Part shown: piece by piece, positions 30,973 to 64,000 of the stretch
Layout: each line of letters starts with the position of its first letter
Position numbering within the stretch: the stretch's first letter is position 1
Source: Treponema sp.
Lineage (GTDB): Bacteria > Spirochaetota > Spirochaetia > Treponematales > Breznakiellaceae
Reading direction: 5' to 3'
Assembly: GCA_031286205.1 (NCBI GenBank)
Contig: JAITUR010000091.1
Location: forward strand, 1 to 64,000
DNA length: 64,000 nucleotides
Notes under the pieces: generated by a model
The model's database searches: none
What the model was told of the DNA's origin: nothing
What the model saw: the letters and a program-made list of their open reading frames with translations, nothing else
Translations under genes and position numbers: made by a program

Positions 30973-31866
30973 TTAAAATTCCAGATTTCTTTGGCTTGCG
31001 CCGCCCGGTCCTGTCTCTACTCTTTCAGGAATACCGCCTTTTAATAAAGGATTGTTAGATATAGCTACCAGTAAATCCTGTATTTCTCTTAAACCGATGC
31101 TTAAATCATTTAATATGACAGGAAGCTGAGAAGGAAGAACATGGGTTGATCTGTTAATATCTTCCAAAATACCGGAAACCGATCTTAACATGGATATCAA
31201 TTCATTGTAAATTGGACCATCGCCGTCAAGAGCCCGCATAATGGTTCCATTTGGATCCGCAAGTCCTCTTGTAACATCTTCTATATATCTTAAAGTCTGC
31301 GAAAGCGGCAAATTTTCAGAACCCGGAGGAGCCGATAAAGATAAATTTATATTTTCCAGAAGTTCATTTACTTGATTCATTATATTGCTGATACTGTCCT
31401 CGGAATCGGTTTTTGTCGTCATGCCGGCCGCTATAAACCTTTTGCCTTCTACAGAATAAATATCCGGTATTAAACTGTATTCATCTAAAATATTAATTCC
31501 GGTTCCGGGATAAAAAATAAATGAATTCCCAAGACCAATAGGACTTGCGACAACTTCGACTAAGGATCCATCCTTAACCCATCTATCCCTGTATTCTTCG
31601 AAAATTGTAAAAGTTGCTTCTACTGTGTCATCGTCTGCAAGTTTAAAATCTTTGACATAACCAATTACAAAACCCTTGTATTGTACCGGCATATTCTTGC
31701 TTAAACCCGAAGCGGACTGAAAATACGATATATAGTGATAATCATACTTAAACCACCTTTGGCTTCTGCCAATCATAAATATTACTACTACCAGAATTGC
31801 AAGTGCAAGTACAACAAGAGCCCCTACAATCTTGTCCGCAAATCTAATTGAAAATCTCATATACAA
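30973..31866 (-). CDS. MCE/MlaD-family substrate-binding protein
   Basis: N-terminal TM then YHYISYFQSASGLSKNMPVQYKGFVIGYVKDFKLADDDTVEATFTI. Confidence 0.9.
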   Translation of the reverse strand: MYMRFSIRFADKIVGALVVLALAILVVVIFMIGRSQRWFKYDYHYISYFQSASGLSKNMPVQYKGFVIGYVKDFKLADDDTVEATFTIFEEYRDRWVKDGSLVEVVASPIGLGNSFIFYPGTGINILDEYSLIPDIYSVEGKRFIAAGMTTKTDSEDSISNIMNQVNELLENINLSLSAPPGSENLPLSQTLRYIEDVTRGLADPNGTIMRALDGDGPIYNELISMLRSVSGILEDINRSTHVLPSQLPVILNDLSIGLREIQDLLVAISNNPLLKGGIPERVETGPGGASQRNLEF

Positions 31867-31872
31867 CCTCCA

Positions 31873-32607
31873 TTATGAAGCTATTCCAATTTTTATAAAA
31901 TCGTTTAAAAGTAAATCGCTTATTATTTCTTCTTTTGGCGCCATGGCAGAAACCTTGCCGTCGATAATTACTGCTACATAGTCCGCTAAATCTATAATTA
32001 ACCTCATGTCGTGGCTGATAAAAAGAAAAGTGCATCCTTCTCTTTGTTTGCTGCGTACAATATTAATTAATCTGTCGGCGGCATTTTCATCCAAAGATTC
32101 CGTCCATTCATCCAAAAACATTAATTTTGGCTCGCATAACAAAGCACGAGCAAATGCTATTAATTTTTGTTCACCCATAGAAAGGTATGCCGGTCTTACG
32201 GTAAGCTTTTTTTTATATCCAACTTTTTCGGTTACTGCATTTATTCGGGATTTTCTTTCTTTGGCAGTCATGCTTGGAAAATGAATTTTTAACGGCAGCT
32301 CCAGAATAGAAAATAAATCCATATTTGCCCAAAGCGCGGAATCCTGAAAAACAAAAGAACAATTGCGCCGGAAATCGCCATTTTCGCCTCTGTTCATATG
32401 GGATATGCTTTTTCCTTCGTAATAAACATTTCCATTATTCGGAACCAATAAACCTGCGGCAAGTTTTAATACAGTGCTTTTGCCGCCGCCGGAAGGACCT
32501 ACAATGGCAGTGGTCTTATTTCTTTTGAACATCATAGAAATATCATTAACTACTATGCCTTGTTGCGCGGAGAAGCTGACATTGTTTAACTCGATAATTA
32601 CTGACAT
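31873..32607 (-). CDS. MlaF-like ABC transporter ATPase
   Basis: AIVGPSGGGKSTVLKLAAGLL Walker A; LSMGEQKLIAFARALLCEPKLMFLDEWTESLD. Confidence 0.9.
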   Translation of the reverse strand: MSVIIELNNVSFSAQQGIVVNDISMMFKRNKTTAIVGPSGGGKSTVLKLAAGLLVPNNGNVYYEGKSISHMNRGENGDFRRNCSFVFQDSALWANMDLFSILELPLKIHFPSMTAKERKSRINAVTEKVGYKKKLTVRPAYLSMGEQKLIAFARALLCEPKLMFLDEWTESLDENAADRLINIVRSKQREGCTFLFISHDMRLIIDLADYVAVIIDGKVSAMAPKEEIISDLLLNDFIKIGIAS

Positions 32608-32618
32608 TTAATTTTCCA

Positions 32619-33404
32619 TTATAAAACCATATAAAATAATACTGATAAAAGAACATTTACCAATATACAAAGCCCAAAAGCGCTGCTTACCGCTTTTAAG
32701 CCGGCAACAGGAATTTCTGTGCTTGCTCTTTCTACCGAAAAACCCTGAACCACAGCAACAATAGATATAATTACACCAAATGATATACTTTTAATAATAG
32801 AAAGTAAAACATCCTGAATAGTTAAGTATTGTAATAAACTGGAAAAATAATGCCCCATTGGTGTAGAACTAAATAATTGCGCAACCAAGTAAGAACCTGC
32901 AAGTCCGAATATGGAAAAATAAATATTTAAAAGAAAAAGGGAGATAGTAACTCCAAGGAATCTGGGAACCGCCAGATGTTCTATGGGGTCTACGCCGACT
33001 GATATATATGCTTCTACTTCGTGCGAAATAACCATGCCCGCTATTTCGGTGGCAATGGCGGTAGCGGATCTTGCGATAACAATAAACGCGGTTAATAGCG
33101 GCCCTAATTCCCTTGTAATAATGATAATTAAAAGCTGATAAATTAGCTGCTCCTGGGAAAAGCCGGAAAGCATGGGCATTCCTATTATTTTTACCGCAGC
33201 GCCAATGGCAAGCGCTAAAAGAGTCGAAATTCCCATAGCATGCACAAATGTAAAAAGAATCTGCATGATAAGTATTCTGAAAGAAGCCTGGGAATGGCGG
33301 ATAAAATAGCCAACGCCCTTTAATGTCCTTGCAAAAAAGCCAAGATTGTAAAAAGTTGTCTTAATCTTATTAATCGGGTTCCACATTACTTTAATTATAT
33401 ACAA
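32619..33404 (-). CDS. MlaE-family permease
   Basis: LIIIITRELGPLLTAFIVIARSATAIATEIAGMVISHEVEAYISVGVDPIEHLAVPRFLG. Confidence 0.93.
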   Translation of the reverse strand: MYIIKVMWNPINKIKTTFYNLGFFARTLKGVGYFIRHSQASFRILIMQILFTFVHAMGISTLLALAIGAAVKIIGMPMLSGFSQEQLIYQLLIIIITRELGPLLTAFIVIARSATAIATEIAGMVISHEVEAYISVGVDPIEHLAVPRFLGVTISLFLLNIYFSIFGLAGSYLVAQLFSSTPMGHYFSSLLQYLTIQDVLLSIIKSISFGVIISIVAVVQGFSVERASTEIPVAGLKAVSSAFGLCILVNVLLSVLFYMVL

Positions 33405-33531: not shown

Positions 33532-33550
<19 letters not shown>

Positions 33551-34284
33551 TAATTTTTCTCGTATACCTCTATATCGTTCTGGTTATCACATTCCAGCCA
33601 TCTTTCGGTTGTTTTTATTGCCTCGATATTATTGTCCAGGCCGATTAAATGCTGCAATAGGGTAGTCATATCAAGCTTTTCTACAGATTTTGGCATGGGT
33701 AATTTAATCGCCTGTTCTATTTTTAACCAGCCCGATGGCTCGAATTTTAATAGACCCATGTACTGTCCTTGAATATCGTCTTTGGAAGACGGTTTTTTGC
33801 CAATCTCTGTTAGTTTACCGTCTTGCATCTTAAAGGTTTCCAGATCATTTAATGGGTTGTCAAAACGCTTGCACCAAAGATCCCAGAATTCCGTGTAATA
33901 TGTTATGGAAAATTCAGCTTTAGATTCCATTAGTTTTTTTACAGGTTCAGGTGAATATACAATATCAGAATAACTGATTATACATGGTTCTGTAGAAAGC
34001 CATTCCGCGGCTTTGGTAAGGGAGATAAACATATTGGTAACTTCCCATTCAGCATTATGAAAAAATTTGACATCCTTTGCCAAATTACATTGTTCATGGA
34101 TAACTTCGCTTTTGTAGCCCGTAACAATGCCGATATTTTCGGAGGCGAACCCCGCTTTATTTAAACTTTCTATACAGTAATCCAGCAGGGATTTATTCCA
34201 AAGTTTCATCATACATTTTGGAAGATTTGCCGTTGCTTCCAACATTCTGCTGCCTCTGCCTGCCGCAAGTATTATTGCTTTCAT
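33532..34284 (-). CDS. Nucleotidyltransferase, candidate L-glutamine-phosphate cytidylyltransferase (C. jejuni Cj1416-like)
   Basis: MKAIILAAGRGSRMLEATANLPKCMMKLWNKSLLDYCIESL; last gene of an overlapping operon beside Cj1417-like and Cj1418-like genes; 3' end overlaps the tRNA. Confidence 0.75.
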
Positions 34285-34880
34285 TAAATACTCCTGTTAA
34301 AAAATGCATTAAATAGTTCTATATCTCTTTTATTAAACGGCTTTTCCCGTTCGGGATGCCACATTATTCCGGCTATAGGCAGGTTTTTATGTTTGATATG
34401 TTCGATAACACCGTCCGTTGCTTTTTGGATTATATCCAGCTCACTGCCGGAATTATCCGGCGCGTATTCGTGGTAACTATTTACATTGTAAGATGAATCC
34501 AGGTCATGGCGTTTTGCGACATGATTTTCTACCTTGTGCAGCGAGCCTCCAAAATAAATAACTATGGATTGCATTCCCCGGCAGACTCCCAATAAAGGTA
34601 TATTGTTTTTTATCGCATAAGAAATAAGAAAATTATCGGTATTGTCGCGTTCAGGGGCGGAACCGCCGTATTCTACAGGAGTGTTCCCGCCGGTTAACAG
34701 GATGCCGTCAATTTGAATCGATTTTATAATCTCGTTTAAAGATAAAGCATGATTAAAAACCGGAAGCCCGATAATGCCCGCTTCCCATAAAAAATCCGCC
34801 CATTTTTGATCAAGAGCATCGCGGCGTTCATTGTAGCTTTCTATTGTATCAACCCGCTGGCTTACAAGTATTTGCTTCAT
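34284..34880 (-). CDS. Class I glutamine amidotransferase/peptidase C26, candidate gamma-glutamyl-CDP-amidate hydrolase (Cj1417-like)
   Basis: GILLTGGNTPVEYGG, PLLGVCRGMQSIVIYFGGSLHKV (nucleophile Cys), GIMWHPEREKPF (His/Glu); operon context. Confidence 0.75.
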   Translation of the reverse strand: MKQILVSQRVDTIESYNERRDALDQKWADFLWEAGIIGLPVFNHALSLNEIIKSIQIDGILLTGGNTPVEYGGSAPERDNTDNFLISYAIKNNIPLLGVCRGMQSIVIYFGGSLHKVENHVAKRHDLDSSYNVNSYHEYAPDNSGSELDIIQKATDGVIEHIKHKNLPIAGIMWHPEREKPFNKRDIELFNAFFNRSI

Positions 34881-37183
34881 TTAAGAACCTCTATTTTTCT
34901 GTTAGCGCAGTCAAGATGCAGGTTTATAGCTTGTGAGAGCCTGTTAAAAACTTTTTCTCCTACTCCAATAGCGGCAGGAATACCAAGTTCTCCCGCGCGT
35001 ATTGCCATGTGGGAATTTGCTCCTCCGTATGCCGTAATAAAACCAAGAATGTCGCAGGAAAAAACCCAGTCAAAACCCGGGTCTGCCGCTTTTATTAAAA
35101 GTATTTTTCCCGTGATATTATCTTTATTGTGTCCTTCCGCTATTACATCTCCTGTTGCTTCCCCCAGAGTGATATAATTGGGGATACTTGTCGGCATATG
35201 GAATGTGTAAATATCTGCGGGGTTAAGAATTACCGGAGGCATGGTAATGCCAAGTGTTTCTTCGTGCCGTCTTTTTCCCTCTGCGATAGAATCGGCAATG
35301 GCTGTTTTTATATCCGCAGCCGAGGAGTATAATTTATCTATTAAAAAATAATCCAGATAAGATATTTCTTCGCGGCTAAAACCGTATTGGTTTCCAAGTT
35401 TGGCTAAAAGTTCCAGGACATGGGAAAGACTTTTTGTAAAAATAAATTTTGAATATTCTCTTCCCTCTATGCCGGCTTTAAGGAATTTAAACAGGGCAAG
35501 AACATCTCCTTTTAATCCCTGGTTAATCATTTCGTTTTGTATTGCAGAATACTGCCCGATAGAAAGAGCAAATGGTTCTTTTTCGCGGGATGCCGCTTCT
35601 GTTTGTCCGCCAAGGTACATTTCCGGCGCGGCATCGTAGCGTTTGGAAGTTATATCATAAGTTCCGGGACGCAGATGCCCGTATTTTTTTAAAAATGCGG
35701 ACTGAGAAAGTTCCTGCCAGTCTGCGGACATTTGCGAGCTGACAGTATTAAGGCTTCCCATATAATTTTGATAGTCGCGCTCGGAAAGGATGCCAATGGC
35801 AACCAGCGATTTTAAAAGCTGCACGGCAATAAAACCCGCTCGCGCAAGTCCTGCAAAGGGCAGAGTGCCGTAACGAGTGCAATCCGCTATCAGCCAATAA
35901 ATCTTGGATATATCGTCCATTTCGCTGTTTATAATAATTTCGCGGCGTTTATCCAGTATATCAATTTTTTGCGTGTCTATAATCCATAAACCGTCCTGAA
36001 CATTAATTATATTATTGGTTAAATCGCAAAGAGAATTTCGCAGGGTATCTATATCCTGCTGAGTAAAACCATGTTCCGATAATATTTTTAAACGCTGGGG
36101 CAGATCAAATGTGTTGCAGGAAAATACAATTTCGAACTCTACTTTATCGTGCTTGTCAGGGTCTGCGGCAAGGCTGTCCAGGTAATAATTGGCAAGTTTT
36201 TCGCTGAGTGTGTTATCTATATCTTTTGGAATAAATGAATTAAAGCTGATTCTAATATCGATATACGGAAGCCCGCAGAATTCTACCATAAGCGGAAAAC
36301 TACGCAGGTTTTTATAGCCGTATTCGTTGCGCTGATACGCCCAGGTACCGTCTGTAATAAGTTTTTTATACAAAGATGACGCAAGCGGCCTTGGACGAAT
36401 ACCGATCATTTCCGCGGGATTCCAGTCCGGCATAACACCGTAGATTGTACGCCGTCCTTGCGCATAAGGATGCAAACCCATGCCTGTTGTAATAAAGTTG
36501 TATGCCCGTTCCAAAGTTTGGCGTTGTTTATCTATGCAGGCGGTTTCTTTCTGCAAAACAAGAGGTCTGGCTTGTAAAATATACAAAATACCGTCTTTTG
36601 TAAAAGCGAATTCAATATCAATATTTTTTTGTCCAAAAAGTTCGATTATTTCTTCGGATGCTTCTACAAGAGAGTCCAATTTAGCATTGCCGCTTTTTTT
36701 CCCATGAAAAATATAACAGGTAGAAGTATCTGCCTGCTGCCCTGAGGTGATAGATTCGGAAGAACCGCTGGTATCGTCGTAATTTATTACAAAATAATTT
36801 CCGCCTGTGTTGGGATCTACCGTAAACAAAACACCGGACATATCTATGTTTTTTAGCATAGGTTGAATCAGTATTTGGTTGTCTGTACTTTTATCGTTGT
36901 AGGATTCGTAAACTTTTTTTGCGGCATCTATTATATTTTCCGGAGTTATGTTTAAAAGCGAAAGAAATTGCCCTGCCATAGAGCTTTTTTCCGTATCTTC
37001 GTTAGATGCGGAAGAACGCACAATAAGAGGAACTTTAAATTCTTTTTGAACCTCTTTTTTTATTTCTTCCGGCTTGGAAAAAAGATCGCCTGTGTTTATA
37101 ACATACTGCGGCAATATTTTACTTTTTTTTACACAAGGCTCCAGCGATTTTAAAGTTCCTGCTTTTGTAGAAAATTTTAACAT
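34877..37183 (-). CDS. PEP-synthase-like protein, candidate L-glutamine kinase (Cj1418-like)
   Basis: PPDK/PEP-synthase ATP-grasp blocks (LIVRSSASNEDTEKSSMAGQFLSLLN, FTVDPNTGG, DIEFAFTKDGILYILQARP), central GVMPDWNPAEMIGIRPRPLASSLYKKLITDGTWAYQRNEYGYKNL, C-terminal phosphohistidine domain CDILGFITAYGGANSHMAIRAGELGIPAAIGVG. Confidence 0.75.
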   Translation of the reverse strand: MLKFSTKAGTLKSLEPCVKKSKILPQYVINTGDLFSKPEEIKKEVQKEFKVPLIVRSSASNEDTEKSSMAGQFLSLLNITPENIIDAAKKVYESYNDKSTDNQILIQPMLKNIDMSGVLFTVDPNTGGNYFVINYDDTSGSSESITSGQQADTSTCYIFHGKKSGNAKLDSLVEASEEIIELFGQKNIDIEFAFTKDGILYILQARPLVLQKETACIDKQRQTLERAYNFITTGMGLHPYAQGRRTIYGVMPDWNPAEMIGIRPRPLASSLYKKLITDGTWAYQRNEYGYKNLRSFPLMVEFCGLPYIDIRISFNSFIPKDIDNTLSEKLANYYLDSLAADPDKHDKVEFEIVFSCNTFDLPQRLKILSEHGFTQQDIDTLRNSLCDLTNNIINVQDGLWIIDTQKIDILDKRREIIINSEMDDISKIYWLIADCTRYGTLPFAGLARAGFIAVQLLKSLVAIGILSERDYQNYMGSLNTVSSQMSADWQELSQSAFLKKYGHLRPGTYDITSKRYDAAPEMYLGGQTEAASREKEPFALSIGQYSAIQNEMINQGLKGDVLALFKFLKAGIEGREYSKFIFTKSLSHVLELLAKLGNQYGFSREEISYLDYFLIDKLYSSAADIKTAIADSIAEGKRRHEETLGITMPPVILNPADIYTFHMPTSIPNYITLGEATGDVIAEGHNKDNITGKILLIKAADPGFDWVFSCDILGFITAYGGANSHMAIRAGELGIPAAIGVGEKVFNRLSQAINLHLDCANRKIEVLK

Positions 37184-37184
37184 A

Positions 37185-38414
37185 TTATATTCCTTCCGTT
37201 GTTTTTATCATAAAGTCTGCCACCTTTTTTCCTGCTTCCCCTTGATACGCCCATGCTTTGTTTTTTATCTCTGAAATAGATGTATCCAGGGAAGAATCCG
37301 CGGATGCTTTTGTAATTACCTCTTGCAGTTCGTTAAACATGGATGGTTCCAGCGCAATGCCTGTATTTTCAAGGTTGCGAAATGTCCAGATTTCATCCTG
37401 ATCCTTATAAATATCATACGCGTCACGGCCTCTCCAATCAAGCTCCTTTGCGGTATAAAAAACCGGTTTATTAAGCAAAAACATATAATCCAGGATAATA
37501 CCGGAATAATCGGAGATCATTATATCGGCCTTTTTTAGGGAATAAATATTATCTCTTTCTAAATCCCATTCCAGGTTGGCGGTATCCGCGTATTTTGCTG
37601 TAAGGCGGTTTATAATTTCTTTTTCTACAAGCAAAGATTGAGGATGAGGACGAATTATTATACGCCATCCTGTTTTAATTAACGGGTCCAGTAGTTTTTC
37701 TCCAAATCTGGAAAGAAGCGCCGCTTCGCTCCACGAAGGAGAAACAAGAACGGTAAAAACATGATTTTCTTCTTTGGGTATTTCGTTTAATTTTTTTAAG
37801 TATTCATCCAGATAGGTGCAGCCCACTGTTACAATTTGTTTTTCCGGCAGGCGGCGGGCTTTTTCCAGTTTACGGATATGCTCTTCCTGATACTCGTATC
37901 CATTTACAAGCAGGGAATCGAAGTAATCTAAACCGAACATTTCGCATTGCGCAAACTCCGACGGAGTATGATATAAATGGCTGTAATGTTTTACCATTTT
38001 GGAACGCTTCCACTGATAAACATCCAGTCCCGGTGTTGTCGCAAGAACAAAATCTGCGGAAAGAAAATTAAGACGGGCAAAAGCTTTATTTCCTTCGCCA
38101 ATATATTCCGGTTTAATATATTTGTAGTTTGTGCTAAAAACAGGATCTTCCGCAGACGAAGTTAAATAGAGAAGCTCTATACCTTTATTTTCGAATTCTT
38201 CTACAACAGGCTTAAAAAGAGTCCAGTATCTTTTATCTTCCGCGTATATTACAAATTTATGTTTAGAGCCGTACTTGCCCTTGCCGCCTGTAAAAAAATG
38301 TTTAATTTTTAATTTAAAAGCATGAAACCCAAAAAAAACCGCAGAGGCTATTCCAACCAATAAAGAAAAAAGCGCGCTTCCCGTACCGGGGTCTATGTAA
38401 AGCGGAAACATCAT
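37185..38414 (-). CDS. CDP-glycerol glycerophosphotransferase-like protein (TagB/TagF family)
   Basis: GWRIIIRPHPQS, DIMISDYSGIILDYMFLLNKPVFYT; N-terminal TM segment. Confidence 0.85.
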   Translation of the reverse strand: MMFPLYIDPGTGSALFSLLVGIASAVFFGFHAFKLKIKHFFTGGKGKYGSKHKFVIYAEDKRYWTLFKPVVEEFENKGIELLYLTSSAEDPVFSTNYKYIKPEYIGEGNKAFARLNFLSADFVLATTPGLDVYQWKRSKMVKHYSHLYHTPSEFAQCEMFGLDYFDSLLVNGYEYQEEHIRKLEKARRLPEKQIVTVGCTYLDEYLKKLNEIPKEENHVFTVLVSPSWSEAALLSRFGEKLLDPLIKTGWRIIIRPHPQSLLVEKEIINRLTAKYADTANLEWDLERDNIYSLKKADIMISDYSGIILDYMFLLNKPVFYTAKELDWRGRDAYDIYKDQDEIWTFRNLENTGIALEPSMFNELQEVITKASADSSLDTSISEIKNKAWAYQGEAGKKVADFMIKTTEGI

Positions 38415-39108
38415 GAATAACTCCCGTAAGAAGCATCGATCTGTTTAAGCTCTTCCAGCGTGTCAATTTCTATTATATCGTTAAAAGAACATTCGCGAAC
38501 CTCTATTTTATAATCGTTAATAAAATATTCCAAAGGAACCTGATCCCAGTATTTTTCTTTGCCGCCGGGTATTTCGTAAACTTCTTTAATATGTTTGGCA
38601 AGTTTTTTTCCGTCTTCTTCGTTCCAATAAGAAATACCAAACATATGGTGGCAATTGCTTCCGCCGATTTTTACTTTTGTAATAATGTTTCCGTCAGTTT
38701 CAAAACACCAGTCATTTGTATAATCGGTTGGAACGCCCAGATAGTTGGTTTTATTTTGATCTTTGTTTATAAGAACCGGGTTTTTAAGCAAAAGGTCGGA
38801 TTCTATTATATATGCGTTTTGTAAATAATCCTGCGCAATTAAAACGGAAGAAATATTATTTGCTTCTTTATAAAACGGATTTTCTAAAAATTGAATATTA
38901 GGATATTTATCTTTAAGTTGGTCAAACTGTTCCCCCAGATATCCTCTAACAATATAAACATTTTCTATACCGGCGGCATAAACAGCGTCCAATAATGTAT
39001 CGATAATTCTTATTCCATTAACTTTTATAAGAGGTTTGGGTGTGTTAAGAGTAATGGGAGAAAGCCGTGTCCCTGAACCTGCCGCAATAAAAATAGCATT
39101 TTTTACCA

Positions 39109-39109
<1 letters not shown>
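38411..39109 (-). CDS. NTP transferase, candidate CTP:2-aminoethylphosphonate cytidylyltransferase (PntC-like)
   Basis: AIFIAAGSGTRLSPITLNTPKPLIKVNGIRIIDTLLDAVYAAGIENVYIVRGYLGEQF, VLIAQDYLQNAYIIESDLLLKNP; directly after phnW and pepM. Confidence 0.8.
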
Positions 39110-42652
<3,543 letters not shown>

Positions 42653-56418: not shown

Positions 56419-57504
56419 GTGATTATTTTACATGTAATGGAGCCGTTTGCCTCCGGTATTACCACTGCTGTTTGCTCAATAATCGGCGAGCTTCCTGAAT
56501 TTACACATATTGTTATACATGGTTTTAGAAACTGTATCGATAATATCGATAATACAAAAAAGCGTTTTCCTGCAGGTGTTTCTTTTATTGAATGGAAAAA
56601 TGCCGACAGGGAAATAAATCTTGTAAAAGACTGGAAAGCTTATAAAGAACTTAAAGCTATTCTAAAACCATATTCATTAAAAAATCAAAAAAACAAATTT
56701 GTAGTGCATCTTCATTCTTCCAAAGCCGGTTTTATTGGTCGTTTTGTCTGCCGCTGTTTGGGAATAAAATCTGTTATCTATACACCGCATTGCGGCGCTT
56801 TTTTACGAACAGATATTAATTTTTTTAAACGAAATCTGTACCGGTTTTTTGAATGGGTTGGAGGGTGTTTTGGGGGAAGGGTAGTAGGATGCGGTCCTTC
56901 AGAGGGAGAATTGTATAAAAATCTGGGAAAAAATACTACCTATGTTTCCAATGGTGTAAAACTAAAAGAAATAAAGGAAATAAAGGCGGACAGGAATCTT
57001 GTTAGTTTTACCGGAATAGCCTGGCTGCAAAAAGCTCCTGCCTTGTGGAATGCTGTAGCAAAAAACTGTTTTATTCCCGCTCGCGACAACGGTTTTTCTT
57101 TTTACTGGATTGGAAGCGGCCCCTGGGAAAACGAACTGGAAAAGGAATTTATTACTGTAACAGGCTGGAAATCCGCGCAAGAAGTGGAGGCACTGCTTCT
57201 TAAAACATCGATTTATTTTTCCACATCTGCCTGGGAAGGGCTGCCTTATGGAGTGCTGGAAGCCATGAACTGCGGCTGCGCGCTGCTTTTAAGAAATGTT
57301 CCGGGTAACAGGGAACTTGTAATTCCAGGGGAAAACGGCTGGCTTTTTAATACAAAGGAAGAAGCAAAAAATAAATTAGAGGTTATGTTAAAAGATAAAA
57401 CACTTCTTGCAAAAATGGGAAAGAATAGCCGCAAGTTAATAGAACAAAGTTTTAGTCTTAAACAAATGGGCGACGGTTACAGAAAAATATATTTAAGTTA
57501 TTAA
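56419..57504 (+). CDS. GT4-family glycosyltransferase
   Basis: VVHLHSSKAGFIGRFVCRCLG, VIYTPHCGAF, YVSNGVKLKEI, YFSTSAWEGLPYGVLEAMNCGCALLLRNVPGNRELV; apparent GTG start. Confidence 0.9.
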   Translation: MIILHVMEPFASGITTAVCSIIGELPEFTHIVIHGFRNCIDNIDNTKKRFPAGVSFIEWKNADREINLVKDWKAYKELKAILKPYSLKNQKNKFVVHLHSSKAGFIGRFVCRCLGIKSVIYTPHCGAFLRTDINFFKRNLYRFFEWVGGCFGGRVVGCGPSEGELYKNLGKNTTYVSNGVKLKEIKEIKADRNLVSFTGIAWLQKAPALWNAVAKNCFIPARDNGFSFYWIGSGPWENELEKEFITVTGWKSAQEVEALLLKTSIYFSTSAWEGLPYGVLEAMNCGCALLLRNVPGNRELVIPGENGWLFNTKEEAKNKLEVMLKDKTLLAKMGKNSRKLIEQSFSLKQMGDGYRKIYLSY

Positions 57505-57516
57505 TAAAGGTAAACA

Positions 57517-60177
57517 ATGATACAGGAAATATTCTATACATTTTTTATATGGCCTATTCAATTTATCCTTGAATTCTTATTTGTTCTTTTTGTAAGAATA
57601 TTTAACTCTCCCGGTTATGCGATTATTTTCTTAAGCGTAGTTGTAAGTACAATGTGCATTCCTCTTTTTAAGATAGCGGAACGCTGGCAAAAGGAAGACA
57701 GGGAACTGCAAAAACAAATGAAGCCAAAGCTGGACAATATTCGTTCTGTTTATAAGGGCGATAAACGCCAGATGATTATAAATACATATTACCGGCAAAT
57801 GGGATATTCGCCTGTCGGTATTCTTAAATCCAGCATGGGTTTGCTTTTGCAGGTACCGTTTTTTATTGCGGCTTATAATTTTCTTTCTAATACCAGAATG
57901 TTGTCCGGAGTATCGTTTCTTTATATAAAAGATCTTGGCGCTCCGGGTGTTTTTTTTGGAATTAACATACTGCCAATTATAATGACAATTATAAATTTAA
58001 TTTCTTCTTTTGTTTATGCAAAAAATCTTGGAAAAAAGGACTTTATTCAGCTTTCCGCAATATCTCTTGTATTTTTATTTCTTCTTTACGATTCTCCTAC
58101 CGGGCTTGTACTTTACTGGACAATGAATAATCTGTATTCACTTTTTAAAAATATTGCGAATAAAACTTTAAAAAAACCGGGTATAATTTTAAAAATTGCC
58201 GCAGCTCTTGCCGCTTTGGCATTTATTATTTTAATTATATCGGGAAAGGCAAGGGTAGAGCGGTTTGGAATTTTATTTGCGGCAGCTGCTGTGGTTTTTG
58301 CGGTAATTCCCTTTGTATGGAAATATATTAAACATGGAATAAACAGCATAGCGCAAAAACTGCAATTTAATATAAAAGAAGAAACTAACCCTAAAAACGA
58401 TTCATTATTTTATATTTCTATAATAATATTATTTTTATTAATTGGAGTGCTGAATCCCGCTCAGGTTTTATCTTCTTCGGTTTCAGATTTCGAAACACCC
58501 TGGTTGTTTTTATTCCGTACTATATTTCAGGGGTTTTCTTTTTTAGTATTGATTCCGCTGTTTATTCGCGCGTTTTCCGCGGATAATATCCGAAAAGTTT
58601 TGTCGTTTGTAATGTCAGCGCTGGCAATTAATGCGCTTATTTGTTATTTTGCGCTGTCTGCATATTATGGAATTATGGACAGAAATTTTAAACTTGACGA
58701 TACCAACCGCCTTTTATATGCCTTTCCCCTGTGGGTAAGCCTTGCGTCTCCGCTTGCCGCATTGGCTTGTACCGGATTATTTACTGTATTAAAAAAGAAA
58801 AAGATTTTAGCGGTATTGTTTCAGGCGGGGTGTGCGGCTATTTTAATTATAATAGGCATTAATCTGGTAACGCTTGGAAAAGGCGCTGCACAGGTAAAGG
58901 AATTAAGAAAGACAGATGATATTACAATACGGGAAATTCCCGTTTATTTTCCTGTTTCCAGAACAGAAAAGAATGTGTTTATTGTTTTTATGGATAGAGC
59001 GCAGGGAAGTGCTGTAACGGATGCGCTTGAGTATATGCCCGAATTTAAAGAATATTTTGACGGCTTTGTTTTTTATCCGAATACAATTTCTTTTGGAGCA
59101 AATACTGTTATTGGCGTTCCATCTATGCTTGGCGGATATGATTCTACACCGCATAAAATAAATAACCGCAAAGATGAGCCTCTTAAAGATAAGGTAAACG
59201 AAGCAATATCTTTTATTCCCAAAAAATTTGCAGATGCGGGTTATAATGTTGTAATTACAGATCCTGTAATAGCAAACTTGCAATCTGTACCTGATATTTC
59301 CATTTTTAATAATATGCCAAATGTAGTCGCGCGACTTCTTTCGGGGAAGTTGACGCATCATTATCTGAATGAATTTAATGATGATACTAAAGAGATAAGC
59401 AATACTTTTGATTTTGATATATTATTTAGATACGGATTATTCCGTACAGCTCCCCCTGCTTTGCGTTATGCAATTTATTATAAAGGTCAGTGGTGGAGAG
59501 AAGCTGCTTACAATAGTTTTGGAAGAGCAACAGCTGAATTTTCCGGTTTATACTACCTGCCGCAGTTAACATATGCAGACAATGGCGGTGCGACACTGAA
59601 TATTTTAATGAATTATATAACTCACGAAGGCGGATCTTACAACAATAATTTTATACCCCAGAATATTCCGTATGAAATTAGCCGGGAAGAGATAGAAAGA
59701 TGGGGAAGCGAAGAAAATGTCGAATATATTTATACGCTTATTGCAGGAATGACCCAGCTTTCCAAATGGTTTAATTATTTAAAAAGCGAAGGAATTTATG
59801 ACAATACAAGAATTATTATTGTTTCGGATCATGGCAGCGGCCGCTATAAAAAATTCCAGGACACAGCCGGAATGGAAGGTTTTAATCCGCTGCTTATGGT
59901 AAAGGATTTTAATACAAGAGGGCAGCTGACAGTATCAGAAAAAATAATGACGCACAGCGATACGCCATATCTTGCGGCAGAAGCTTTGGGTATTACAGGG
60001 ATTATGGATTTGGAAGCTGCGGAAAAAATAAAGAAAGAAGGAATCCCGGTATTTAGCGCGGTTTCGTCCCAGCCTTTGCGGCATGGACCTTATCTGTATA
60101 ATTTAACGGGAAAAAGAAATTTTAACGGAAATAATGTATTGGAAAGAGAAAGCTGGGGAGAGTGGGAGAGTTTTTAA
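57517..60177 (+). CDS. YidC/Oxa1-like insertase domain fused to alkaline-phosphatase/sulfatase-superfamily domain
   Basis: N-term YidC-like (VVSTMCIPLFKIAERWQKEDRELQKQMKPKLDNIRSVYKGDKR, LLLQVPFFIAAYNFLS, YDSPTGLVLYWTMNNLYSLFKNI); C-term VFIVFMDRAQGS, SFGANTVIGVPSMLGGYDSTP, RIIIVSDHGSG. Confidence 0.88.
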   Translation: MIQEIFYTFFIWPIQFILEFLFVLFVRIFNSPGYAIIFLSVVVSTMCIPLFKIAERWQKEDRELQKQMKPKLDNIRSVYKGDKRQMIINTYYRQMGYSPVGILKSSMGLLLQVPFFIAAYNFLSNTRMLSGVSFLYIKDLGAPGVFFGINILPIIMTIINLISSFVYAKNLGKKDFIQLSAISLVFLFLLYDSPTGLVLYWTMNNLYSLFKNIANKTLKKPGIILKIAAALAALAFIILIISGKARVERFGILFAAAAVVFAVIPFVWKYIKHGINSIAQKLQFNIKEETNPKNDSLFYISIIILFLLIGVLNPAQVLSSSVSDFETPWLFLFRTIFQGFSFLVLIPLFIRAFSADNIRKVLSFVMSALAINALICYFALSAYYGIMDRNFKLDDTNRLLYAFPLWVSLASPLAALACTGLFTVLKKKKILAVLFQAGCAAILIIIGINLVTLGKGAAQVKELRKTDDITIREIPVYFPVSRTEKNVFIVFMDRAQGSAVTDALEYMPEFKEYFDGFVFYPNTISFGANTVIGVPSMLGGYDSTPHKINNRKDEPLKDKVNEAISFIPKKFADAGYNVVITDPVIANLQSVPDISIFNNMPNVVARLLSGKLTHHYLNEFNDDTKEISNTFDFDILFRYGLFRTAPPALRYAIYYKGQWWREAAYNSFGRATAEFSGLYYLPQLTYADNGGATLNILMNYITHEGGSYNNNFIPQNIPYEISREEIERWGSEENVEYIYTLIAGMTQLSKWFNYLKSEGIYDNTRIIIVSDHGSGRYKKFQDTAGMEGFNPLLMVKDFNTRGQLTVSEKIMTHSDTPYLAAEALGITGIMDLEAAEKIKKEGIPVFSAVSSQPLRHGPYLYNLTGKRNFNGNNVLERESWGEWESF

Positions 60178-60189
60178 TAAGGCTTTGTT

Positions 60190-62952
60190 TTAATAGCGTT
60201 TTGTAATTTTTGTCCAGTTGTTTTTATCGAAAATATTATCTTTTACATGATAAAAATAGGAAACTTTATCTAATGCTTCCCAACCGGTAAAATCTTGTGT
60301 CTGAGATGAACCGCCAAGAAAAATATTTACACCGTCTTCTTTTTCAGAAAAAAAGCTTTGCCCCGAAAAAGGATTTTTTGCATTCGGTATAATATCCATG
60401 ATTGCTAATAAAGGCGTGTCTGCATTAGTCATAAAACTGTTATCCGTTCTTAATTCTCCTGTACTGTTAAAATCTTTGAACAAGAGTATTGGATTATAGG
60501 CAGTATAATCCCGGCCTATTAAGCCGGAAGGATCGTTAAATAATACCCCTGCATGGTCTGAAACAATAATGATACGGGTATTGTTATAGACATTATTTTC
60601 TTTCAGAAAATCAAACCACTTTTCCAGAAGAAGATACGAGGCGGCATTTACATGGTAAAATTGATGTGAATTTATATTTCCGTTAAATAAATCCGGACCA
60701 AAATCGGTTACTTCGGAAACAACGGTGTAATCAGGATACTGTAAAAAAGAAGGATCGTGCGCCATGTTGGCAACCATTAAGGTAAAGGTGTTTTGCGTAT
60801 TTTCTATACAGGTTAATTCCGGTAAATAATGAAGAACCGCATAACTGGTAAGAGCGCTGTTTGTTACAATATCTAAACGTGAATTGTCAGTTACCGCCCA
60901 ATAATTTCCCCTGTCGTAAATTATTTTTCTTAATATGACAGGAGATGTTAAAAAAACGCTAAACATTGTAAAATTATGTTTTAGTATTAGTTCTGTCTGC
61001 GTCTCTTTTAATGGTGCATCAGAGCCAAGAAAATCTATAAATTTTTTATTATATTTTCCCTCAAGATTGTTTGCATTTATACCCCGTTCTGTAAAAAATG
61101 AGAGTTCCATATTTCTTTGATGATTTACATAGGGCAGATCGTATACATTTGCGGAATAATCATGATTCTTAAAAAGTTCGGGAAGAACAAGGGAAGATTC
61201 GGTGTATTTATCTTTCATTAATTCATTGTTTCTTTGGTGCAATCTTTCCGGAGTGTATTCATAACCGCCAAATAGGGGAGGAGCCCCCAATATAGTTGAA
61301 CGATAAAAAGAAACCGTATTGGGATAGTAAACAAATCCATTAAAAGATGTCTTTAGTCTTTCGTGTTCGTTAATAATGCTCTTAAAAAAAACTCCCAAGG
61401 CCTTGTCCAGCATTACAATAAACACATTGTGCCCGTCTTTCGAAAGGAATATTTGTTTATCAAGTTTATCTTCATTTACGGAAAAAGATTTATTTTGATT
61501 GTCAATAGAAAGACTGTCTATATTGCTTTCTACTATAGATTTATGGGAAAGATAGCCTCTTTGAATTTCAGCAGTTTTTATCGCAGAGAAGAAAATCATG
61601 GATACCATAATGATTGAAGATATAGCAGATAGTATTTTAAGTTTATTAAAACGGAAAACAGACAGAATTAATAGAAAAATACAAATTCCGGCCGCGATAT
61701 TATAAGACGAAAAAGTATTAGAAACCATAAAATTGGTACTGCCCGGAAATGCGAGAGTTTGCGAAAGCATTCCATAATTTCCGGAAAATAAAAAAGTATT
61801 AATTAACCCAAAAACAAGGGCAAAAGACATAAAAAAACTGATACCGATTCTGATCTTGTCATTACCAAGAAAATAAATACATATAGGCCAAAAGCAAAAT
61901 AATCCAAGCGAAACAAAAAGAGGCGGAACCAATACATTAAAGGGAGAAGCGTTTACAATATAGGAAAATTCTGCCGGATCTGAAGCTACTATGTTAAAGG
62001 GAATAAATATAGCGCACAATACACCAAAGGAAAGACAGGATAATATAAATATAGTTTTAATTTGTCCGCTTTCTTTTTTTAGGAAGAAGAAATGTTTTTT
62101 TAATCCAGGTATAATTAACTTTAATAAAATAGGAATGGAAAGAATAAAAACTGAAAAACCTATAGCGGCCAGTCTAAAAGATATTTGATTGCTTCTTCCC
62201 GTAAAGCGAAAGAAAATAACATATAAACACGAAGATATAAGTAGCACAGAAAGTAAAATATAAAATATTAAACCGCTGTGTTTTGATTTAAGAATTATAT
62301 TTTTTACAAGAGAAATAATATTATTGCAGGTCCAGTATAGCACCAGTGCTGCCGGAGAATTATATAAAAGAACCAGAAAAAATATAGACATACCATAAAG
62401 CTGCAATTTTTCTTTTATAGGGAACCCGCGTGTATAAATAAAGCCTGAAACAATATTTATAAGCGTCATTAGAACAGGAAGTATATTTATAGTTATAGAA
62501 CCAAAAGAAATAAGCGCATCGGGTGCCCCTAAATTGCGTATCCAGAGAAAAGGTTCGCCCTGTAATGGTTCGAAGCCGGACAAAAAGTGATACGCCGCTA
62601 TGAAAAACGGAACCTGTATTAAAAGACCAAATGAACTGCGAAGGGACATAATGGGGTGATAGTGGTTTATTCGGTAATACATGGAGATAAGCATATATTG
62701 TTCGTCTTTTTTAAAGTATTGTTTTATTTGGGCAATTTTTTTTGCCATTTTCTGTTGAATAAGCCGTTCTTTTTCCTGCAATTTTTCCGCTTTTAAGTAC
62801 AGGGGCAGGCAAAGAAGACTTACAATAACACTGATTCCCAATACCGCAAAACCGTGATTATTTCGTACAACCAATACAAGAAATCCATAAACAGATTCCA
62901 GAATTAAGACGATCGGGCCAATAATTAAATTGTATATACTTGATAAAATCAT
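60190..62952 (-). CDS. Paralogous YidC/Oxa1-like insertase domain fused to sulfatase-superfamily domain
   Basis: N-term VIVSLLCLPLYLKAEKLQEKERLIQQKM, LLIQVPFFIAAYHFLSG, YNSPAALVLYWTCNNIISLVKNI; C-term VFIVMLDKALGV, SFYRSTILGAPPLFGGYEYTP, RIIIVSDHAGV. Confidence 0.88.
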   Translation of the reverse strand: MILSSIYNLIIGPIVLILESVYGFLVLVVRNNHGFAVLGISVIVSLLCLPLYLKAEKLQEKERLIQQKMAKKIAQIKQYFKKDEQYMLISMYYRINHYHPIMSLRSSFGLLIQVPFFIAAYHFLSGFEPLQGEPFLWIRNLGAPDALISFGSITINILPVLMTLINIVSGFIYTRGFPIKEKLQLYGMSIFFLVLLYNSPAALVLYWTCNNIISLVKNIILKSKHSGLIFYILLSVLLISSCLYVIFFRFTGRSNQISFRLAAIGFSVFILSIPILLKLIIPGLKKHFFFLKKESGQIKTIFILSCLSFGVLCAIFIPFNIVASDPAEFSYIVNASPFNVLVPPLFVSLGLFCFWPICIYFLGNDKIRIGISFFMSFALVFGLINTFLFSGNYGMLSQTLAFPGSTNFMVSNTFSSYNIAAGICIFLLILSVFRFNKLKILSAISSIIMVSMIFFSAIKTAEIQRGYLSHKSIVESNIDSLSIDNQNKSFSVNEDKLDKQIFLSKDGHNVFIVMLDKALGVFFKSIINEHERLKTSFNGFVYYPNTVSFYRSTILGAPPLFGGYEYTPERLHQRNNELMKDKYTESSLVLPELFKNHDYSANVYDLPYVNHQRNMELSFFTERGINANNLEGKYNKKFIDFLGSDAPLKETQTELILKHNFTMFSVFLTSPVILRKIIYDRGNYWAVTDNSRLDIVTNSALTSYAVLHYLPELTCIENTQNTFTLMVANMAHDPSFLQYPDYTVVSEVTDFGPDLFNGNINSHQFYHVNAASYLLLEKWFDFLKENNVYNNTRIIIVSDHAGVLFNDPSGLIGRDYTAYNPILLFKDFNSTGELRTDNSFMTNADTPLLAIMDIIPNAKNPFSGQSFFSEKEDGVNIFLGGSSQTQDFTGWEALDKVSYFYHVKDNIFDKNNWTKITKRY

Positions 62953-63776
62953 TTTTTCTTAAAAATATCCCTGATTAATACTAAAAGTTTCCCATATTGC
63001 CGGTAAAAAAAAGATGAAGTGTAAAAAAATAACCGTACTTTTTCTATAAAATAAAAACGGCTTCCCAATTTTCCACAAAAATGAACAACCGAAGGAAAAA
63101 CAAAAGAGCCGAATTTTTTAAATCGTGCGTACCCTTTAACAACATTTATTGTTATATCCTCTGCTCCTATAAGGGTTCTGGAGAATCTTCCGCAGTCATC
63201 GAAAGGTTTAATCCCTTTTTTTGCAAAAGCAAGAGCAAAGAATGGTTCGTCCGGATACATATTTTTTCTAAAATAGCCGACATTAAGTGCTGTAGGATTT
63301 TTCATATAATCGTTGGCGGTTTTGAATAGTTCTGTAGAATCCTTATTTTTATAGAATAAAAGCATACCGCTGTTAAATTCCGGTATCCATTCGACAGAAT
63401 GTTCGTTTTTTGTTTTTTCAATATCATAATACCAGTGTCCGTTATAACGGAGCATGCCATAATAAAGAAAAAATGATTTATCCAAAAAATAAAAATAATA
63501 ATCAATATTATTAAATACAAGGGAATCTGCATCAAGAAACAGATTTTTTTCAAATGGGGTATATAAATGAATAAGGGTTTTTGTTTCGAAGGGTGCGCCT
63601 AAATCCTCTTTATAATCAATAATAATGTCAAAAAAAGGTTTTAGATATGCGCCGCAGTCGGTTATTACAGCTCTGGGAATATGAGGAGCATGAACCATGC
63701 AGGAAAGTGCCAAATACTTTGCCTGTTTCGCGTATTTTTTTCCTACAGCAATTGTAATTATTCCTTTATTAAGCAT
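62949..63776 (-). CDS. Putative nucleotide-diphospho-sugar transferase (GT8-like)
   Basis: ITIAVGKKYAKQAKYLALSCMVHAPHIPRAVITD, TPFEKNLFLDADSLVF (DxD), EFNSGMLLFYKN; ATG at 63776 preferred over the ORF-track start at 63803. Confidence 0.75.
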   Translation of the reverse strand: MLNKGIITIAVGKKYAKQAKYLALSCMVHAPHIPRAVITDCGAYLKPFFDIIIDYKEDLGAPFETKTLIHLYTPFEKNLFLDADSLVFNNIDYYFYFLDKSFFLYYGMLRYNGHWYYDIEKTKNEHSVEWIPEFNSGMLLFYKNKDSTELFKTANDYMKNPTALNVGYFRKNMYPDEPFFALAFAKKGIKPFDDCGRFSRTLIGAEDITINVVKGYARFKKFGSFVFPSVVHFCGKLGSRFYFIEKVRLFFYTSSFFYRQYGKLLVLIRDIFKKK

Positions 63777-63790
63777 GATGTTTATTCCTT

Positions 63791-64000
63791 TTACCTTTGC
63801 CAATCGCAGCGTTTACAAATACCCAGAGTTCGTTTACCATGAAAAAGTTCGTGATGAACTTCCAGAAATTGCTTTGAATTAAGAATTTCTTTTAATGATA
63901 AAGAAGAAACATTGCCAAAAACAAACCGATTTTGCCAATCCAGGCAGCAAATACTTATATCGCCGTAACAATTAACCGTTATATCTCTTATTGTTGCATA
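63791..64000 (-). CDS. Partial radical SAM/SPASM-domain protein, C-terminus only, runs off the window
   Basis: Reverse strand reads ...NCYGDISICCLDWQNRFVFGNVSSLSLKEILNSKQFLEVHHELFHGKRTLGICKRCDWQR*, a SPASM-type cysteine pattern. Confidence 0.75.
   Translation of the reverse strand, partial: YATIRDITVNCYGDISICCLDWQNRFVFGNVSSLSLKEILNSKQFLEVHHELFHGKRTLGICKRCDWQR

Follow-up and report, generated by a model that had tools for sequence, protein, structure and literature searches.

What is an insertase fold doing at the head of an enzyme that resembles lipid head-group transferases? The question is raised by two adjacent genes in a 64,000-nucleotide stretch of a Treponema contig (the window). From its letters alone, each gene had been predicted to fuse a YidC/Oxa1-like domain to a domain of the alkaline phosphatase superfamily, with the YidC-derived part serving as a membrane platform or lipid channel for a putative periplasmic phospho- or phosphonotransferase. 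That reading fits everything found here. Across the phylum, the fusions are also accompanied by a single cytoplasmic partner gene, and together they suggest an undescribed machine by which groups made inside the cell are attached outside it.

Architecture of the fusion proteins

The first gene, fusion A (57517..60177, + strand, 886 residues), encodes a YidC-like domain, a linker with multiple transmembrane (TM) helices and an LtaS/EptA-like catalytic domain; the second, fusion B (60190..62952, − strand, 920 residues), shares this architecture. Both reading frames are open throughout. Fusion A is preceded at a distance of 12 bp by a GT4-type glycosyltransferase gene (56419..57504, +), and a putative glycosyltransferase gene overlaps the start of fusion B (62949..63803, −). 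A profile search of the host genome located a third copy, fusion C, about 2 kb outside the window (contig C92:65852-68617), where the gene run comprises a radical SAM gene, a gene of family PF04464 and the third fusion.

Pfam searches placed PF02096 (60KD_IMP) at residues 33-213 of fusion A (84 bits, E 1.2e-23) and 34-222 of fusion B (81 bits, E 1e-22), far above the 35-bit cut-off, and NCBIfam returned matches to the YidC C-terminal domain in the fusions. PF00884 (Sulfatase) exceeded its cut-off in fusion A at 35 bits and was below detection by Pfam in fusion B, which aligns full-length with fusion A and conserves its catalytic residues. The motifs quoted in the original prediction, QVPFFIAAY, SP.GLVLYW..NN, VFIV.D and IIIVSDHG/SDHA, are all present.

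An AlphaFold model of fusion A built from 90 sequences (pLDDT 90.8, pTM 0.88) allowed both halves to be recovered by Foldseek. The YidC/Oxa1-like domain (residues 1-217, 57517..58167, +; in fusion B, 62287-62952, −) superimposes on E. coli YidC 6al2 with an rmsd of 3.7 over 210 columns at 25% identity, which bears out the predicted N-terminal fold. The top matches (9nww, 5fgn, 6xlp and 4uor) belong to the MCR-1, EptA, PbgA and LtaS set, in agreement with the predicted likeness to phosphoglycerol and phosphoethanolamine transferases. When the part that follows the YidC domain was modelled separately, PbgA, EptA and MCR-1 were matched again with modest TM-scores. The alignments to EptA, MCR-1 and PbgA span about 600-700 columns, but at an rmsd of 16-17 and with low TM-scores for the linker, so that in the model the linker corresponds only roughly to the five-TM domain of EptA. 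The linker (residues 218-467, 58168..58917, +) contains seven TM helices in the AlphaFold2 model; since this number is odd, and loop charges agree, the catalytic domain (residues 478-850, 58948..60066, +) is predicted to lie outside the membrane.

Distribution and copy number

Counted at E <= 1e-40, the fusion was detected in 107 of the phylum's 394 genomes, representing 32 of 169 genera, with Treponema bryantii and T. putidum among the named carriers; Clostridia also possess the architecture, with as many as about a dozen copies in a genome. Full-length homologues from many genera and two phyla share 29-46% identity, which excludes chance or a local artefact and, together with the uninterrupted frames, upholds the original view that sequencing error is an unlikely cause. 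In the YidC-domain tree the fusions form one long-branched clade apart from the canonical YidC proteins of both phyla (support 1.0), pointing to a single origin. Apparent alternative N-terminal domains were rejected: the hits in question covered only the last two thirds of the profile and on inspection were ordinary fusions whose linkers had diverged, so the joining of the two domains is constant. A viral origin was likewise rejected, as no relatives were found in viral contigs and the BFVD matches were generic sulfatases.

The host genome contains four PF02096 genes, namely the three fusions on this contig and the separate canonical yidC whose presence the original prediction had made a check (C34:7114-7782, 204 bits); its only PF00884 matches are the fusions. 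Copy number is higher elsewhere: two clostridial genomes (G434, G435) hold up to about a dozen PF02096 matches each, and loci L086 and L078 carry tandem arrays around a single PF04464 gene, for example four fusions, the partner and four more fusions. A typical fusion was also seen on a contig labelled as a Tannerella metagenome-assembled genome (L067), possibly a mis-binned spirochaete contig. Some relatives bear copies that are split into a YidC frame and a catalytic frame or interrupted by stops, two of them in the complete T. putidum chromosome (L078:16649-19350, L078:20658-22500, G050:C20:126368-128858, G056:C16:2134-4868 and G031:C1:143898-146372). These may be either pseudogenes or switchable copies; the homopolymers examined there for phase variation were only tracts of 7-8 A in AT-rich DNA. 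Split genes excepted, the YidC part is joined to the enzyme in every copy examined.

Conservation of the catalytic and YidC-derived domains

The metal site and nucleophile anticipated for the C-terminal domain are both present. Asp493, Thr530, His703, Asp771, His772 and Asp815 are identical in all 123 homologues, fusions B and C included; the fusion A codons lie on the + strand at 58993-58995 (Asp493), 59104-59106 (Thr530), 59623-59625 (His703) and 59827-59832 (Asp771-His772), and the corresponding residues of fusion B (− strand) are Asp516, Thr553, His732 and Asp799-His800. In the LtaS profile alignment, Asp493 falls on the metal-ligand Glu and Asp771-His772 on its Asp-His pair. The usual second-site metal His is Asn in 108 of the 123, as in a one-metal site. 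Type I sulfatases need a Cys or Ser nucleophile, which becomes formylglycine, and a Thr nucleophile fits LtaS/EptA chemistry; the nucleophile is Thr in all 123 homologues, with no Cys or Ser substitution, which excludes a formylglycine sulfatase. No NCBIfam family of the LtaS/EptA type matches the fusion. Like LtaS, EptA, MCR-1 and PbgA, then, the fusion sets an alkaline-phosphatase-fold domain, predicted to be periplasmic, with a Thr nucleophile and Asp-His ligands behind TM helices; unlike them, it has a full YidC-type domain in front, replaces the Glu ligand by Asp and mostly the second-site His by Asn, and is tied to a PF04464 gene. As its candidate activity, the enzyme probably decorates surface sugars with groups that contain phosphate or phosphonate.

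The YidC part is the best conserved, with a mean majority identity of 0.69 as against 0.57 for the catalytic domain and 0.43 for the linker. It retains the five-TM core and cytoplasmic hairpin of YidC/Oxa1 insertases and, as predicted, lacks the large periplasmic domain. It also departs from the insertases in its long-branched clade and in its groove: at the position of E. coli Arg366, 21 of 22 canonical YidC sequences are basic (Lys or Arg), whereas all 121 fusions with a residue there have Ser, Thr or Asn (Ser44 in fusion A, 57646-57648, +, by alignment to E. coli YidC). A further fusion, L028, which is not one of those 121, carries Phe at the equivalent position. Loss of the groove charge from the most conserved part of the protein suggests that the domain is under strong selection and yet unlikely to be an ordinary insertase.

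A PF04464 partner gene accompanies the fusion

A gene of about 410 codons for a PF04464 (CDP-glycerol-phosphotransferase-like) protein adjoins the fusion in 59 of 78 loci, with a median gap of 3 bp and 64 of 65 pairs on the same strand. Of 394 genomes, 104 have both genes and 285 lack both; 3 carry the fusion without the partner and 2 the reverse. The resulting co-occurrence phi is 0.97 (Fisher P = 4e-89, a statistic that ignores relatedness), whereas PEP mutase reaches 0.40 and LicD 0.35; on this weak association LicD was rejected as a partner. Counted by genus, the fusion occurs in 32 of 169 and the partner in 33, one genus having the partner alone. The linkage persists when the two genes are far apart, as in genome G081, where they lie on different contigs. 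Of the two PF04464 genes in the host genome, one lies beside the third fusion and the other in the phosphonate operon of the window; the latter encodes a membrane-anchored protein of 409 residues directly beside a PntC-like gene (37185..38414, −).

Like TagB, TagF and TarL, the partner scores over the PF04464 gathering cut-off and bears RPHP and SDFSG motifs; NCBIfam gave no match for it. It differs from them in its obligate fusion company, in a single N-terminal TM helix and in a near-invariant YIDPGTG motif, found within the first 60 residues of 60 of 62 partners.

Activated groups in the gene neighbourhoods

The original prediction had set the two genes in a glycan locus near a phosphonate/phosphoramidate operon. 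The phosphonate link is firm in this window, where pepM, phosphonopyruvate decarboxylase and AEP aminotransferase genes all exceed their NCBIfam cut-offs; the operon (38411..42652, −) encodes a LicC/PntC-like nucleotidyltransferase, a PEP mutase with an N-terminal cytidylyltransferase domain, the aminotransferase and the decarboxylase. The phosphoramidate-like genes (33532..37183, −), named by resemblance, encode an NTP transferase, a GATase like gamma-glutamyl-CDP-amidate hydrolase and a PEP-utilising protein like glutamine kinase. Both sets lie on one strand between 33532 and 42652 with the PF04464 gene between them, and an MlaE/MlaF/MlaD-type lipid-transport ABC operon (30976-33404) adjoins the phosphoramidate-like genes.

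As a general rule, a strictly phosphonate system is rejected, with PEP mutase in only 46 of the 107 fusion-bearing genomes. Fusion neighbourhoods are rich in glycosyltransferases, and LicC/PntC-like nucleotidyltransferases adjoin the fusion or partner in 27 of 78 loci. Loci with PntC-AEP-aminotransferase fusions carry pepM and phosphonopyruvate decarboxylase, and one locus has a LicC-choline kinase fusion. In some loci an NTP_transferase-aminotransferase fusion is located between fusion and partner; three such proteins beside the fusion or partner join a nucleotidyltransferase to a class I/II, possibly CobD-like, aminotransferase (L041:12723-14696, L050:12654-14690 and L062:13922-15748). These three would make a CDP-aminoalcohol. 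What unites the loci is a phospho- or phosphono-group activated with a cytidylyl moiety, and phosphonate is only one form of it.

The same cytidylyltransferases serve the Lic (LicC-LicD, phosphocholine) and Pnt (PntC, AEP) pathways. LicD acts on the glycan directly, in the cytosol, and is only loosely associated with the fusion; here, unlike in those pathways, the transfer would fall to the fusion and its partner. The PntC protein Tde1415 makes CMP-AEP (PMC6697681).

Discussion

Taken together, a model for a two-gene surface-decoration machine emerges, which we advance tentatively, as somewhat short of an even chance. LicC/PntC-type cytidylyltransferases would make a CMP- or CDP-activated group X, a step that the neighbourhoods support; X would be AEP where phosphonate genes are present, choline at a single locus and, in the remaining loci, probably other amino-alcohols. 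Going by its family, the PF04464 partner would load a membrane lipid with X-phosphate or X-phosphonate to form an intermediate that we infer. The YidC-derived groove, polar and devoid of Lys/Arg, may then pass the lipid head group across the membrane and hand it on. The LtaS/EptA-type domain would accept X-P on its invariant Thr, where Asp and Asp-His form a one-metal site, and pass it to a surface glycan, its putative substrate.

Lipid scrambling via the insertion groove has been shown for E. coli YidC and further insertases (PMC10491306), which makes the crossing plausible. Because insertion-defective BhYidC mutants scrambled less in simulation (PMC10491306), loss of the groove charge could also lower scrambling rather than specialise it. 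The three genomes with a fusion and no detected partner, and the two with the partner alone, are exceptions to the scheme. To our knowledge, PF04464 enzymes act on lipid-linked glycans and not on phospholipid, which counts against the lipid-loading step. The loci hold 137 fusions and 65 partners, about 2:1, a ratio that fits one maker of the donor lipid serving several transferases; multiple fusions per partner may then differ in acceptor specificity.

That same ratio, with four to eight fusions per partner in some loci, is awkward for the main rival to the relay, which presumes a fixed 1:1 complex and which we consider unlikely. Here the groove would be a docking site for the TM helix of the partner, with the YIDPGTG tail outside and the two transferases face to face. 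The tail supports it through the invariance of Tyr5, Ile6, Asp7, Pro8, Thr10 and Gly11, as does the near-perfect co-occurrence. So does the predicted topology: the short tail before the helix averages about 0.6 Lys/Arg and a net charge of +4.5 follows it, so the N-terminus would be outside and the enzyme domain cytosolic.

Two separate modifications are no likelier an explanation, and we doubt it. TagB and TagF decorate or extend a lipid-linked glycan in the cytosol, and EptA and LtaS use an ordinary phospholipid (phosphatidylethanolamine or phosphatidylglycerol). With the known chemistry of both families and neighbourhoods rich in glycosyltransferases in its favour, the PF04464 protein would modify the cytosolic glycan and the fusion the exported one, the YidC part being a structural scaffold; neither the tight co-occurrence nor the conservation of the YidC part, the highest in the protein, would then be explained.

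A C-terminal domain that strips groups from glycans, as a sulfatase or phosphodiesterase would, is improbable. PF00884 is the sole catalytic-domain family over its cut-off, and the profile matches include choline-sulfatase and phosphonate monoester hydrolase; against this stand the uniform Thr nucleophile, the membrane transferases MCR-1, EptA and LtaS, with PbgA, as top fold matches, and the biosynthetic neighbourhoods. Least probable of all is a working insertase that carries an enzyme and inserts, for example, the partner or glycan-export proteins: fold and hairpin are kept, and an N-out helix is of the kind that YidC inserts, but the groove charge has been lost throughout and the host genome has its canonical yidC.

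No earlier description of the fusion architecture or of the fusion-partner pair was found in open-access full texts, a search with subscription papers and preprints largely outside its scope. The parts are of known kinds; their joining, the loss of groove charge and the obligate partner appear new to us. Extended beyond this locus, the relay would mean that an insertase fold has been turned into a lipid-head-group crossing domain and, with PF04464, provides a general route by which CMP/CDP-activated groups are loaded inside, crossed and attached outside, supplying the missing last phosphonoglycan steps in spirochaetes and Clostridia; this broader claim we regard as possible rather than probable.

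Insertase lipid scrambling has been demonstrated in vitro, and the portions of that report considered here name no dedicated biological use for it (PMC10491306). The fusion, in which an insertase fold is covalently attached to an enzyme resembling lipid head-group transferases, would be a natural test case. For phosphonoglycans, Rice et al. describe the steps after C-P bond formation as "enigmatic", with only cytidylyl activation solved (PMC6697681). The fusion-partner gene pair is a concrete candidate both for these later reactions and, more generally, for zwitterionic modification of the spirochaete surface.
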